A DNA stretch of 64,000 nucleotides from Verrucomicrobiia bacterium (GTDB lineage Bacteria; Verrucomicrobiota; Verrucomicrobiia; Limisphaerales; Fontisphaeraceae). The notes beneath the pieces were generated by a model. It ran no database searches and had not been told where the DNA came from. It saw only the letters and a program-made list of their open reading frames with translations. The stretch is from positions 62,001 through 126,000 of the forward strand of contig JAOAIT010000053.1 in assembly GCA_026414565.1 (NCBI GenBank), written 5' to 3'. The position numbers and the translations under genes were made by a program. This document shows positions 27,234 to 36,949 of the stretch, one piece after another (positions within the stretch are counted from its first letter, which is position 1; each line of letters begins with the position of its first letter).

Positions 27234-27309
<76 letters not shown>

Positions 27310-33538: not shown

Positions 33539-33841
33539 ATGCAATACGAGGCACTCGAAAAGAAACTGCTCGCCGCCGCCCGGAGCCATCCGCCGGGCGA
33601 CCAGGTGCCGTACGCCTTTGAGCAACGCGTCCTGGCCCGCATCCGGCAGAAGCCGCAGGCGGATGCTCTGACGTGGTGGACGCAATGGCTCTGGCGGGCC
33701 GCCGTTTCCAGCCTGCTGGTCACTTTGCTGGCCGGGATCTGGGCCTTGACCCCCCCTTCGCAGAACTCAGCGGGGGCGTACGCGGATGATTTTGAAAGCC
33801 TTGTTTATGCCGGGCTGAATGAATTGAGCGACAGCCGGTGA
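33539..33841 (+). CDS. Small single-helix membrane protein, probable anti-sigma partner
   Basis: 100 residues: a charged cytosolic N-terminal half (QYEALEKKLLAAARSH and FEQRVLARIRQK), one transmembrane helix (about residues 47-69, WRAAVSSLLVTLLAGIWAL) and a short acidic outer tail. No zinc-binding HxxxCxxC motif of classical anti-sigma domains is present, so the assignment as anti-sigma rests on position after an ECF gene and on topology. A GTG at 33524 would also open the frame, but it lies next to the ECF-type -10 and is therefore unlikely. Its stop overlaps the next gene's GTG start as GTGA, which points to translational coupling. Confidence 0.75.
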   Translation: MQYEALEKKLLAAARSHPPGDQVPYAFEQRVLARIRQKPQADALTWWTQWLWRAAVSSLLVTLLAGIWALTPPSQNSAGAYADDFESLVYAGLNELSDSR

Positions 33842-34437
33842 AAACGTGGAAGGTCATTCTGGCGGCAGCGGTCATCTTCATAGCCGGAGTCCTGACAGGC
33901 GCGGTGGTGGTATGGAAGGCCCGCTCGGTGCCCACTTTGCCCACCGCCCGCAGCAACACCAACGCCCCCAGCCCATGGTTCATCCATCGCCCTGAATTCC
34001 TTGAGGTCATGAAAAAGGAACTGGCGTTGACCCCGGAACAGGCGGACAAAATTGCTGCCGCTGTCCGCACCAGCCGCCAGCGCACCGACTTTCTCTGGGA
34101 AATGCTCAAGGAGCCGCTGCAGGAGGAGTTGTACTTGCTCAAAGACAACATCCTGGCGGTGTTGGAGCCGGCGCAGCAAAAAAAGTTTGAAGAACTGATC
34201 AAGCCGCGTCCCCCGCGTTGGGATGGAGGCAAACGCTGGGGCGGAGACAAGGAAGGCGGCCGGCCGCCCGGTCCTCCAGGCCCTGGAGGCCCCGGCGGTC
34301 CACCTGACAATCAAAAACGCTCCGGTGGCCCCCCGCCCTGGGGGGGTGGACCCGGAGTAGGAGATAAACCTCCGGGCGGCCCACCTCCGGGCGGGCCGCC
34401 TCCCCTTCGACAACCAGGGGCACCTGGCGAGCGATAG
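33838..34437 (+). CDS. Spy/CpxP/CnrX-like periplasmic sensor with Gly-Pro-rich tail
   Basis: 199 residues starting at a GTG that overlaps the upstream stop. An N-terminal membrane anchor or signal (VILAAAVIFIAGVLTGAVVV) precedes a helical region (about 55-120) with LALTPEQADKIAAAV and LEPAQQKKFEELI. The latter recalls the LTxxQ-type repeats of Spy, CpxP and CnrX, which sense periplasmic stress or metals (family knowledge; similarity judged by eye). Residues 125-199 are almost only Gly, Pro, Arg, Lys and Asp in PPGGPPPGG runs. Together with the sigma factor and the small membrane protein it suggests a three-part envelope-stress or metal-response switch. The stimulus is unknown. Confidence 0.76.
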   Translation: MKTWKVILAAAVIFIAGVLTGAVVVWKARSVPTLPTARSNTNAPSPWFIHRPEFLEVMKKELALTPEQADKIAAAVRTSRQRTDFLWEMLKEPLQEELYLLKDNILAVLEPAQQKKFEELIKPRPPRWDGGKRWGGDKEGGRPPGPPGPGGPGGPPDNQKRSGGPPPWGGGPGVGDKPPGGPPPGGPPPLRQPGAPGER

Positions 34438-34438
34438 T

Positions 34439-35455
34439 TTAATCGCGTCCTGCGGCCGCCAGGAAGGGCTTGATTTCGCGCATCAGGCGGCTGAAGTGAT
34501 CAAACGTCAACTGCTGCGCCCCATCACTCCAAGCCTCAGCAGGATTGGGATGCACTTCCAAGAGCAGGCCATCGGCACCCATGGCCACGGCCCCCTTGCA
34601 CAGAGACATGACCAAATCCGCCCGGCCGCATCCCTGACTGGGGTCAATGACGATTGGGCAATGGGACTCGTTTTTGATGATCGGGATGGTGGACAGGTCC
34701 AGGGTATTGCGGGTGTAGGTTTCAAAGGTACGAATGCCGCGCTCGCAGAAGATCAGGTTGGGGTTTTCATTGGCCAGAACGTATTCCCCGGCCAGCAGCC
34801 ATTCTTCGATGCGCATGGATAAACCGCGCTTGAGCAACACGGGCTTGCCGGTCCGGGCGGCGGCAATGAGCAACTGGAAGTTTTGGGCGTTGCGCGTGCC
34901 GATTTGCAGGATGTCCGCATACTCGGCCACCAATTCCACGTGTTGCTCGCTGAGCAGCTCGGTGACGATGGGCAGCCCGGTTTCCTCCCGGGCCTTGGCG
35001 AGCAATTTAAGCCCCTTTTCGCCCAGGCCCTGAAATTCGTAAGGACTGGTCCTTGGCTTGAAAGCGCCGCCGCGCAGCACGGTGGCGCCCGCCTGCTTGA
35101 CCACCTTGGCGGTGGCCATGAGTTGTTTTTCGCTTTCCACCGAGCAAGGCCCGGCCATGACGTGAAACTTGCGCCCCCCCAGGGTTACATGGCGGCTCAC
35201 CTTGACGGTGGAGTTGTCTGGATGCGCCTCCCGGCTGACGAGTTTATATCGTTTTTGGACGGGCATGACACTCTCGACCTGCGGCCAGGCCGTGAGCGTT
35301 TCCAGCGAGGCATGCGTGCGTTCATCACCGATGGCGCCAATAACCGTCCGCGCCACCCCGCGCATGACATGGGGTTCGTACCCGAGCTTTTGGATTTCTT
35401 TGAGGACTGCATTTTCCTGCCGCCGGGTAATATTGGGCTTGAGAACGATGATCAT
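34439..35455 (-). CDS. aroF: 3-deoxy-7-phosphoheptulonate (DAHP) synthase with N-terminal ferredoxin-like domain
   Basis: First enzyme of the shikimate pathway: phosphoenolpyruvate plus erythrose 4-phosphate to DAHP. The 338-residue protein has a ferredoxin-like or ACT-like N-terminal domain (residues 1-70, MIIVLKPNITRRQ...), which in the Thermotoga-type enzymes mediates feedback by Tyr and Phe. The catalytic barrel follows with MAGPCSVES, GGAFKPRTSPYEFQG, a KRG loop (LLKRGLSM), NLIFCERGIRTFE and PIVIDPSQGCGR. It is preceded by an attenuator leader at 35479-35612, so expression is probably controlled by charging of aromatic tRNAs. The gene is convergent with the sigma operon. Confidence 0.95.
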   Translation of the reverse strand: MIIVLKPNITRRQENAVLKEIQKLGYEPHVMRGVARTVIGAIGDERTHASLETLTAWPQVESVMPVQKRYKLVSREAHPDNSTVKVSRHVTLGGRKFHVMAGPCSVESEKQLMATAKVVKQAGATVLRGGAFKPRTSPYEFQGLGEKGLKLLAKAREETGLPIVTELLSEQHVELVAEYADILQIGTRNAQNFQLLIAAARTGKPVLLKRGLSMRIEEWLLAGEYVLANENPNLIFCERGIRTFETYTRNTLDLSTIPIIKNESHCPIVIDPSQGCGRADLVMSLCKGAVAMGADGLLLEVHPNPAEAWSDGAQQLTFDHFSRLMREIKPFLAAAGRD

Positions 35456-35478
35456 AATGTTGTTGGTGCTTGCTGCTT

Positions 35479-35512
35479 AAAAAAACAAACCGCAGGAGGC
35501 ATTCCTGCGGTT
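35479..35512 (-). terminator. Attenuator terminator in the DAHP synthase leader
   Basis: On the minus strand AACCGCAGGA (35512-35503) pairs perfectly with TCCTGCGGTT around a five-base loop, followed by TGTTTTTTT ending at 35479. It ends 24 bases before the gene's start codon, so read-through is needed to express the gene. Its arm CGCAGG (35509-35504) is also complementary to CCTGCG at 35551-35546 inside the upstream leader frame. Pairing there would form an antiterminator. Confidence 0.88.
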
Positions 35513-35540
35513 GGCAAACTGACGGTGAAACGACGGCAGC

Positions 35541-35612
35541 TCAAACGCAGGTGCCCGGGTGGGCGTACCACCCGTACCACGCGCCATTAAATCGAAAGCT
35601 GCTCACGTTCAC
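35541..35612 (-). CDS. Aromatic-rich leader peptide (23 residues) of the DAHP synthase attenuator
   Basis: A GTG-initiated frame on the minus strand encodes 23 residues and stops with TGA. Its core is FRFNGAWYGWYAHPG, so 6 of 15 residues are Phe, Trp or Tyr, with two Trp-Tyr pairs at codons 12-13 and 15-16. The last codons (Thr-Cys-Val) contain CCTGCG, which can pair with the terminator's 5' arm. A ribosome waiting at codons 12-16 leaves CCTGCG free, whereas one that reaches the stop covers it. That logic is the classical attenuation scheme and fits control by Trp and Tyr (Phe possibly). No good Shine-Dalgarno is visible. GTG 35606 is an alternative start, and the promoter places the transcript start almost at the first GTG. 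Confidence 0.68.
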   Translation of the reverse strand: MNVSSFRFNGAWYGWYAHPGTCV

Positions 35613-35619
35613 GGGGACT

Positions 35620-35647
35620 AATCTAATGGAGGGCCTCGTGACGTCAA
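35620..35647 (-). promoter_or_regulatory. Predicted promoter for the DAHP synthase leader transcript
   Basis: On the minus strand TTGACG (35647-35642) is followed after 16 bases by TAGATT (35625-35620). That is 5 of 6 and 4 of 6 matches to the housekeeping -35 and -10. Transcription would start around 35612-35614, just before or at the leader peptide's GTG. Confidence 0.5.
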
Positions 35648-35698
35648 CAAAAAATTGAGGTGCACGGTAACCCACCCCGGGATACCGATTTAATGAGG

Positions 35699-36949
35699 TC
35701 AACTTTCCTTGGACAGGGCCTCGGCCAGGTCCTGCTCGTGCTTGACCCGCGCGGCCTCCACGTCGTAGTTCACATTGTCGGGATGATCGGGGTTGAGCGG
35801 CGAGATGTCGCGCAGTTTCTTGATGATGCCCGGCAGGTGCCGCAGCAGGTAATCTACATCCTCGTCGGTGTTGTAAATGCCCAGGCTGAAACGCACGCTG
35901 CCCCGGGCGCGCATGGGGGTCAGCCCCATGGCCATGAGGACGTGCGAGGGGTCCAACGAGCCGGTGGTGCAGGCCGAGCCGCTCGAGGCACAGATGTTGA
36001 CCTGGTCCAGAAGCAGCAGGACAGCTTCGGCCTCCACAAAATCAAAGGCGATGTTGCAGGTGTTGGGCAGGCGGGGTTCTTTGGCCCCGTTGCGGAAGGT
36101 GTGGGGGATGGTGGTGAGGATGGTGTTTTCCAGCCGGTCCCGCAACGCCCGCACCCGGGTGTTTTCCTCCTGCAGGCGCTCCATGGCCAGCTCGGCGGCG
36201 CGGCCAAAGCCGATGATGCTCGCCACGTTTTCGGTGCCACCGCGGCGACCGCGCTCCTGATGGCCGCCGATAATGTAAGGCTGGAATTTGGTGCGCCGCT
36301 TGATGTAGAGCATGCCGATCCCTTTGGGCGCGTGCAATTTGTGAGCGGAGAGGGAGAGGAAATCCACGCCCAAATCGCGCACGTCGAGTTTCAATTTACC
36401 GGGGACCTGCACGGCATCGGTATGGCACAGGACTCCTTTGGCTTTGCAGATGGCGGCGATTTCTTTGATGGGAAAGACCACGCCGGTTTCATTGTTGGCG
36501 TACATGACACTGACAATGGCCGTGTCGGGCCGGATGGCGCGCTCGACTTCTTTCAGGTCGAGCAGCCCTTCCGAGTCCACGGGCAGAAAAGTGACCTCGT
36601 ACCCCTGCTTTTGCAGGTATTCGCCGTAGTTGATGTTGGCGGAGTGTTCCACGGCCGTCGTGACGACATGTCGCTTGTTGGGCTGGGTGGCCAGGGCGCT
36701 GTGGAGGGCGGCGTTGTTGCTTTCGGTGCCGCAACTGGTGAAAACCACTTCTTTAGGATCGGCATTGATCAGCGCGGCCACCTTTTCGCGCGCCTGTTCC
36801 ACTCCCTTGTGGATTTCGTTGGCGAATTTGTAGGCACTGCTGGGATTGCCCCATAAATCCCGCAAATAAGGCACCATGGCCTCAATGACTTCCGGGGCCA
36901 CCTGGGTGGTCGCGTTATTGTCAAAATAATAAAATTTTTTCTCGCTCAT
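35699..36949 (-). CDS. nifS: Cysteine desulfurase, NifS type
   Basis: PLP enzyme that takes sulfur from cysteine to a persulfide for Fe-S cluster and other sulfur-using pathways. 416 residues from the ATG at 36949, chosen because MSEKKFYYFDNNATTQ is the normal family N-terminus. Visible are the TAVEHSANIN segment, the PLP Lys in SLSAHKLHAPKGIGMLYI, RGGTENVASIIGFG and the persulfide-carrying Cys in SSGSACTTGSLDPSHVL, which is the NifS rather than IscS form of that loop. No iscU or nifU lies beside it. A near-perfect palindrome at 36982-36996 sits in its probable promoter. Confidence 0.94.
   Translation of the reverse strand: MSEKKFYYFDNNATTQVAPEVIEAMVPYLRDLWGNPSSAYKFANEIHKGVEQAREKVAALINADPKEVVFTSCGTESNNAALHSALATQPNKRHVVTTAVEHSANINYGEYLQKQGYEVTFLPVDSEGLLDLKEVERAIRPDTAIVSVMYANNETGVVFPIKEIAAICKAKGVLCHTDAVQVPGKLKLDVRDLGVDFLSLSAHKLHAPKGIGMLYIKRRTKFQPYIIGGHQERGRRGGTENVASIIGFGRAAELAMERLQEENTRVRALRDRLENTILTTIPHTFRNGAKEPRLPNTCNIAFDFVEAEAVLLLLDQVNICASSGSACTTGSLDPSHVLMAMGLTPMRARGSVRFSLGIYNTDEDVDYLLRHLPGIIKKLRDISPLNPDHPDNVNYDVEAARVKHEQDLAEALSKES

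Follow-up and report, generated by a model that had tools for sequence, protein, structure and literature searches.

How does a member of the Verrucomicrobiota control entry into the aromatic pathway, and could the DNA in front of its DAHP synthase gene be a switch that reads aromatic amino acids? In this work, we analyzed a single stretch of 64,000 nucleotides, hereafter the window, and compared this locus with those of its relatives. The gene in question lies on the reverse strand (34439-35455, ATG at 35455) and encodes a 3-deoxy-7-phosphoheptulonate (DAHP) synthase of 338 aa, which matches Pfam DAHP_synth_1 together with an N-terminal ferredoxin-like domain, the NCBIfam 3-deoxy-7-phosphoheptulonate synthase and solved DAHP synthases, e.g. 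1rzm. A convergent frame on the forward strand (33838-34437) leaves one base between its end and that of the gene (34437/34439). The initial annotation had proposed a promoter, a leader frame, a terminator and an alternative pairing within 35479-35647, and each of them was found where it had been placed, on the reverse strand. The promoter scan gave a -35 box TTGACG (35642-35647) and, after a spacer of 16 nt, a -10 box TAGATT (35620-35625) that ends 7 nt before the start codon of the leader frame. This frame, MNVSSFRFNGAWYGWYAHPGTCV, runs over 35541-35612 and comprises 23 codons plus TGA, with its GTG at 35612 and its stop at 35543-35541. The terminator downstream has a 10-bp stem and a 5-nt loop (35512-35488), built from a 5' arm AACCGCAGGA (strand 3, 35503-35512) and a 3' arm TCCTGCGGTT (strand 4, 35488-35497); the T-run TGTTTTTTT (35479-35487) follows the hairpin directly, and 23 nt separate it from the DAHP synthase ATG. 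The antiterminator arm CCTGCG (strand 2, 35551-35546) is complementary to CGCAGG (35509-35504) inside the terminator 5' arm and corresponds to nucleotides 62-67 of the leader frame, in agreement with the earlier statement that the competing arm begins at nucleotide 62.

Taken on its own, the window sequence gives evidence that is barely above chance. Within 1.4 kb, one promoter-like site was seen against 0.4 expected and three terminator-like sites against 1.8, and 22% of shuffles matched the 6-bp CCTGCG/CGCAGG pairing in complementarity. The whole leader folded better than 199 of 200 shuffles (-57.3 kcal/mol, z -3.31), and in the predicted fold of the free leader CCTGCG is buried in 5' structure while the terminator is formed. 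When the genome of origin was searched with a covariance model, 27 matches were obtained up to E 10, and only the DAHP synthase site was a strong one (E 1.6e-9, against 5.4e-4 for the best match elsewhere). That next full-length match (L085), considered as a second copy, was rejected as a plain terminator. It is the comparison with relatives, as far as sequence can tell, that puts the predicted attenuator beyond chance.

These relatives were the best 80 of 210 confirmed loci, from a scan of one genome per species; their DAHP synthases are 76-84% identical, and most of them carry the names Verrucomicrobia, Verrucomicrobiales, Limisphaerales or Pedosphaera. With the window they make 81 sites, 78 of them testable (L011, L018 and L051 have too little upstream DNA). 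The leader frame was defined by geometry, as an ATG or GTG placed 33-39 nt after TTGAC and opening 10-45 codons, and its composition was tested afterwards. Such a frame was present in 66 of the 78 testable sites, that is, the window and 77 relatives from the best 80 of 210. Counted by distance from TTGAC, start codons summed to 68 at 34-38 nt and never exceeded four at any of the remaining distances between 20 and 59 nt. Phe, Tyr and Trp made up 24.4% of the residues in the 66 geometric frames, which include two (L014, L021) that run into the terminator; reading the sites in the other two frames gave 7.6% and 10.2%. Among the 12 sites lacking a geometric frame, L058 and L068 have aromatic leaders, with the TTGAC spacing absent or slightly wider. 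As for the choice of start codon, one leader listing was made with a bonus for TTGAC and another without it. A second set, drawn from the strongest loci found with the covariance model (L092-L116, L251-L276), carried a DAHP synthase and a frame in 51 of 51 checked cases, the frame always starting 34-40 nt after TTGAC (51/51); in the 22 leaders new in this set the aromatic share was 26.0% in frame and 6.2% and 9.7% out of frame, a partly dependent result, as the model itself takes in part of the aromatic stretch. Both the conserved short frames rich in W, Y and F and the co-changing arms described below, which the initial annotation had suggested looking for upstream of homologues, are thereby found.

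The exceptions are of several kinds. Sixteen sites without a clear terminator or leader were left out of what follows (L007, L008, L009, L012, L013, L014, L015, L021, L022, L030, L042, L046, L061, L069, L075 and L076), and 62 remain. Five of the sixteen (L013, L046, L061, L075, L076) have the aromatic frame with a weak or missing terminator, two (L022, L069) have neither leader nor terminator, and six (L007-L009, L012, L015, L030) show no attenuator after the promoter. A terminator kept after loss of the leader, the pattern named beforehand as speaking against attenuation, does occur, in four of the 77 testable relatives (L014, L021, L040, L042 have a terminator without a clear leader), and forms no trend. 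In two of these, L014 and L021, the last ~100 nt before DAHP synthase keep promoter and terminator, the leader is gone, and the GTG found where a leader start would be expected opens a frame that enters the terminator.

At closer range, the same-genus relative L113, whose DAHP synthase is 97% identical to that of the window, has codons 1-16 of the leader identical in 47 of 48 bases, the sole difference being synonymous and in Tyr16. The -35 box is identical as well, and the 16-nt promoter spacer agrees in 6/16 positions. Outside the switch, conservation of the leader body is poor, which bears on whether the ~130-nt leader RNA or its peptide also acts in trans, in addition to the cis switch and not in its place. 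Such a role has a precedent in the Sinorhizobium trp leader peptide, as described in the cited part of PMC7298713, and that precedent is the one point in its favor; the poorly conserved body argues against it, and we regard a function in trans as very unlikely.

Concerning the amino acids that may be sensed, the window leader contains two Phe, two Trp and two Tyr codons, and the name "Trp-Tyr leader" given to it in the initial annotation proved too narrow for the family also: 75 dereplicated leaders hold 239 F, 124 Y and 77 W, an average of 5.9 aromatic residues. All three residues occur together in 55 of these 75 leaders, against 39.5 expected when their identities are shuffled (0/3000) and 41.7 when the shuffles keep the rank from the end (0/3000). 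The excess becomes weaker under stricter dereplication, with 41/59 against 31.7 (6/3000) and 20/30 against 16.5 (177/3000). A sensor of all three aromatics would fit the common first step of the pathway, and a shortage of Phe, Tyr or Trp would probably turn the gene on.

The position of these codons was examined with a model ribosome that was placed at every codon, the RNA being taken as free starting 13 nt past the first base of the A-site. For this analysis the antiterminator arm was defined solely by its complementarity to the terminator, and 54 of the 62 sites were used; eight with unclear arm assignment were dropped (L006, L040, L041, L050, L058, L059, L063, L083), a removal that favors the distance model. 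With the A-site 12-18, 18-24, 24-30 and 30-36 nt ahead of the arm, 65%, 61%, 49% and 42% of the codons are aromatic, respectively, and this share falls to 23% at 6-12 nt and 5% at 0-6 nt; altogether the aromatic codons spread over roughly 12-48 nt before the arm. The predicted antiterminator pairing over the same 54 sites is 0.83, 0.87 and 0.82 for stalls at 12-18, 18-24 and 24-30 nt, 0.17 at 6-12 nt and 0.00 at 0-6 nt. In the model, then, the aromatic codons would end about where a stalled ribosome would cease to free the arm. For the window, the distance to the arm is 19 nt from the beginning of the last Trp codon and 16 nt from that of the last Tyr codon, and predicted antitermination is 0.98-0.99 for stalls at codons 2-17, 0.38 at codon 18 and 0 from codon 19 to the stop, in line with the earlier claim that the arm is free with a ribosome at the second Trp-Tyr pair and covered with one at the stop codon. 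The fold model also predicts antitermination for early, non-aromatic stalls and does not by itself single out the aromatic codons; silence of the early codons would need a pause or kinetic competition.

The spread of the aromatic codons bears in turn on a different kind of stalling, in which the nascent peptide arrests the ribosome together with the free aromatic amino acid, as in TnaC, and uncharged tRNA plays no part. Some residues are indeed shared among the leaders, namely an MN or VN start and YYFSR in several relatives. Apart from the aromatics, however, the peptides vary greatly, and aromatic codons distributed over such a distance fit codon reading better than one arrest sequence; we give peptide arrest very little credence.

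The two alternative pairings change together across the relatives. The terminator consensus, from 56 of the 62 sites (L006, L025, L033, L040, L041 and L063 were left out), has nine pairs, six of them with changes on both sides. The commonest terminator arms are GCCGCAGG and CCTGCGGC, with a leader arm CCTGCG or CTTGCGGC inside the leader or at its end; depending on the relative, this arm is translated as LR, CA, AC or CV. Other arm types are matched in their own way: L031, L038, L055 and L065 combine a GCCGGC terminator with GGCCGGC-like leader arms, L043 pairs TGTCGG with CCGACG, family f26 has an arm CGGGCCTG with CAGGCCCG, and most of family f33 has GGCGGC with GCCGCC. In 58 dereplicated sites of the 62, antiterminator complementarity was 19.3, against 13.7 (sd 2.9) in shuffled leaders. 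Permuting the arms among 80 sites (61 of the 62, seven from f26 and f28, and 12 from f33) gave 1326 (sd 23) against 1506 observed, a value reached in 0 of 2000 permutations, kinship not being corrected for. For the 27 sites that do not have the commonest arms, and which represent a handful of arm types, 491 was observed against 429 (sd 15) on permutation (0/5000), again with kinship uncorrected. In family f28 the pairing of the own arms (14.3) hardly exceeds that of swapped arms (14.1). A particular arrangement was seen in L006 and L041, where the old GCCGCAGG arm still matches the leader arm and a new terminator stem lies just downstream without overlap. Altogether, these comparisons support leader and terminator arms that would be mutually exclusive and that change together, weakly so in f28 and with no overlap in L006 and L041.

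A simpler explanation is that the hairpin is the plain end-of-gene terminator of the upstream gene and that the short frame is due to chance. That gene, encoding a NifS-type cysteine desulfurase, does lie on the same strand, with its end at 35699, ~190 nt before the terminator, and the plain terminator L085 of the same genome weakly resembles the model. Nevertheless, (i) the promoter sits between the desulfurase gene and the terminator, (ii) in-frame aromatics, a distance rule and a co-changing leader arm are not expected of a plain terminator, and (iii) the same-genus relative L113 keeps the attenuator though only 12/25 of the nucleotides preceding its -35 box are identical to those of the window. 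We hold this explanation to be extremely improbable. Equally hard to credit is sensing without translation of the leader, whether by a riboswitch or by a leader that binds a protein or a tRNA (T-box-like or TRAP-like): the strongly structured free leader (see the z value above) would suit it, but nothing in the window except a tRNA gene elsewhere (27237-27309, reverse strand) matches Rfam at gathering level, the region 35400-35700 gave two chance-level matches (E 2.2 and 2.3) and no leader family (Trp_leader, T-box, others), conservation follows codons, enrichment is found in one frame only, and relatives translate one and the same RNA arm into different residues. Taken together, these results make it highly probable that the window element is a cis-acting, ribosome-mediated transcription attenuator on the DAHP synthase gene.

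The promoter position adds a further feature to this attenuator, one that the initial annotation had not mentioned. In 56 of the 66 sites a TANNNT motif ends 4-11 nt upstream of the leader start, compared with 1-2 of 66 for each of four control windows; in 53 of the 56 the end of the -10 box is 6-9 nt from the leader start, and in 47 the promoter spacer is 16 nt long. The distance from a -10 box to the transcription start is usually 6-8 nt, so that transcription would be expected to begin at the start codon of the leader. A Shine-Dalgarno-like 4-mer was seen in front of 4 of 66 leaders, and the starts of the DAHP synthase genes have one in 5 of 81 cases. The leader is thus probably leaderless, in the sense that its start codon coincides with the predicted transcription start and has no Shine-Dalgarno sequence before it. 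Some Verrucomicrobiota are poor in Shine-Dalgarno sites according to the cited part of PMC10783764. As a separate observation, the six sites with no attenuator after the promoter (L007, L008, L009, L012, L015, L030) carry TTGAC 38-41 nt upstream of the ATG of DAHP synthase itself, an arrangement that would let the promoter drive a near-leaderless DAHP synthase mRNA.

The mechanism that we propose from these parts would operate as follows. RNA polymerase would start at the leader GTG or within 1-2 nt of it, and a ribosome would load directly on the 5' end of the RNA by leaderless initiation and trail the polymerase. When charged Phe, Tyr or Trp tRNA is short, the ribosome would stall on one of codons 6-16, its footprint would end before nucleotide 62, and CCTGCG would be free to pair with CGCAGG in the terminator 5' arm; this pairing would block the terminator, and DAHP synthase would be transcribed. 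With all three tRNAs charged, the ribosome would reach the stop codon and cover CCTGCG, the terminator would form, and the RNA would end after ~130 nt. If no ribosome translates it, the free leader of the window would hide CCTGCG and the terminator would likewise form (predicted antiterminator pairing without a ribosome is 0 in the window); since the corresponding mean over the 54 sites is 0.36, termination without translation would not be general.

As to the distribution of the attenuator, a covariance model (R1) built from 56 sites gave matches with E <= 1e-5 in 116 of 245 genomes from the window's order; 102 of the 116 were below 1e-8, and the other 14 (best E >= 1e-8) are unsure, the best match of one of them (G006) being L118, which has no DAHP synthase. 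In the window's own family the attenuator was present in two of three genomes. The 160 of 286 genomes matched in the class at E <= 0.01 are not to be counted as attenuators; of the 30 class-search loci listed, 27 have a DAHP synthase and three (L117, L118, L120) do not. In the phylum-wide search 20 of 240 genomes matched at E <= 1e-5, and among 12 newly fetched loci (L181-L192) L186 alone precedes a DAHP synthase, so weak R1 matches are mostly something else. R1 could help to annotate such sites if weak matches are checked for the gene.

We also read 60 further upstream regions, chosen among the matches listed, seven of them from families f26 and f28, by a rule that designs lacking a TTGA[CT]- or TTG[CA]C-type box would escape. 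In 53 of these 60 regions among the matches listed, no attenuator was found by this rule; the 53 comprise 44 related DAHP synthases (60-72% identical, from other families of the class), two members of the order and seven second or remoter copies. The attenuator occurs in both genomes of f26, and leader plus terminator in six of the seven f28 genomes examined, with a terminator only in L166; the DAHP synthases of these two families are 57-59% identical to that of the window. In L125 (f45), a frame with eight aromatic residues follows TTGAT and has no terminator. A remote type of DAHP synthase (347 aa, 34% identical to that of the window; L186, L196-L230) is preceded by a leader and a terminator in 11 of 23 f33 genomes. 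There the design is an F/Y-rich leader, ranked with the TTGAC bonus and containing Trp in only 6 of 12 cases, followed by a GCCGCCC/GGGCGGC-like terminator; it was found in none of 12 genomes from four families other than f33. Within the genome of origin, the second DAHP synthase (L002) has no TTGA[CT]-placed frame and no attenuator, and no frame of 8-45 codons with at least three aromatics was found in the last 350 nt before the trpE-like gene (L193) or the prephenate dehydratase gene (L195). Four f28 genomes (G005, G021, G030, G055) have two DAHP synthases each, and the one second f28 copy read (L174) is without the attenuator.

In a gene tree of 37 proteins, the bearers of the attenuator (the order of the window, f26, f28 and f33) do not form one clade. 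L008, L012 and L015, which have no attenuator, group together at 100/99, which suggests one loss. Several backbone forks are weak and L186 sits on a very long branch, and the tree allows both ancestry and repeated gain of the attenuator. It is tempting to speculate that a leaderless attenuator reading F, Y and W at once, and selected for all three in one peptide, was fixed on at least two distant Verrucomicrobiota DAHP synthase genes, either through independent origins or through movement of the switch from gene to gene, and acts there as the chief transcriptional control on entry into the aromatic pathway; we put this wider scenario forward tentatively, as possible but on the whole doubtful.

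The candidate described here adds a widely conserved leader-peptide attenuator to the Verrucomicrobiota. E. coli uses isozymes for entry into the aromatic pathway; for the bacteria studied here, the likely answer to how this entry is controlled would be a single switch adding up the signals of Phe, Tyr and Trp. Should the leader prove to be leaderless, it would furthermore provide a natural system for a ribosome that loads at the 5' end and has to keep pace with RNA polymerase.

Among known systems, the trpL and pheL leaders of Proteobacteria combine a leader frame, alternative arms, a terminator and a set distance of the control codons to the arm. The present element resembles them in all four respects and differs in that its target is DAHP synthase and not trpE or pheA, in that it is probably leaderless, and in that several amino acids are read together, for which the ilv and thr leaders offer a parallel. 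The general logic of ribosome-mediated attenuation is stated in the cited part of PMC11802643. For the same gene, there are earlier proposals of aroF attenuation for E. coli and Shewanella (PMC2659441; PMC8632094, citing Camakaris et al. 1980); the cited passages give no aromatic leader peptide, and the likeness is one of description. Leader peptides without a 5' UTR are described in Actinobacteria, such as trpL1 and leuL of Streptomyces lividans, trpL1 being followed by a terminator (cited part of PMC8079986). Our leaders would share the missing 5' UTR, here deduced from promoter position alone, and differ in phylum and in target genes. In Acholeplasma, the passages cited from PMC8632094 describe uORFC-13-1, a computed short frame before aroF with Phe codons, a terminator and its own promoter, together with a ribosome binding site, at least one Phe codon and an extra paired element, in 24 representatives from one genus and environmental sequences. 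By comparison, the Verrucomicrobiota leaders have few Shine-Dalgarno-like sites, many F, Y and W codons and a wide distribution.

The initial annotation had named trp and phe leaders in Proteobacteria but no combined Trp-Tyr leader on DAHP synthase in the Verrucomicrobiota. For this phylum, we found no report of a leader-peptide attenuator in the open-access literature, subscription literature lying mostly outside the scope of the search; DAHP synthase as a target is not without precedent, aromatic leaders on this gene having been described for aroR and uORFC-13-1. What the comparison of sequences presents is a real, widely conserved predicted attenuator that is new for the phylum within the literature searched and would work by a known mechanism, that of the trp and phe leaders and of aroR. 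The closest tested case is aroR of C. glutamicum, which shares with our locus an aromatic leader peptide upstream of DAHP synthase and is likened to it by design only. It lies before aroF, and ribosome stalling at its Phe and Tyr codons raises transcription, as the cited part of PMC11802643 states (citing Neshat et al. 2014); the leader has been detected by RNA-seq (cited part of PMC4046766). Its motif is Phe-Tyr-Phe (cited parts of PMC4046766 and PMC11802643). Availability of Tyr is reported to be of no importance. Whereas aroR has Phe-Tyr-Phe only, the leaders described here belong to another phylum, carry on average almost six aromatic residues and usually include F, Y and W.
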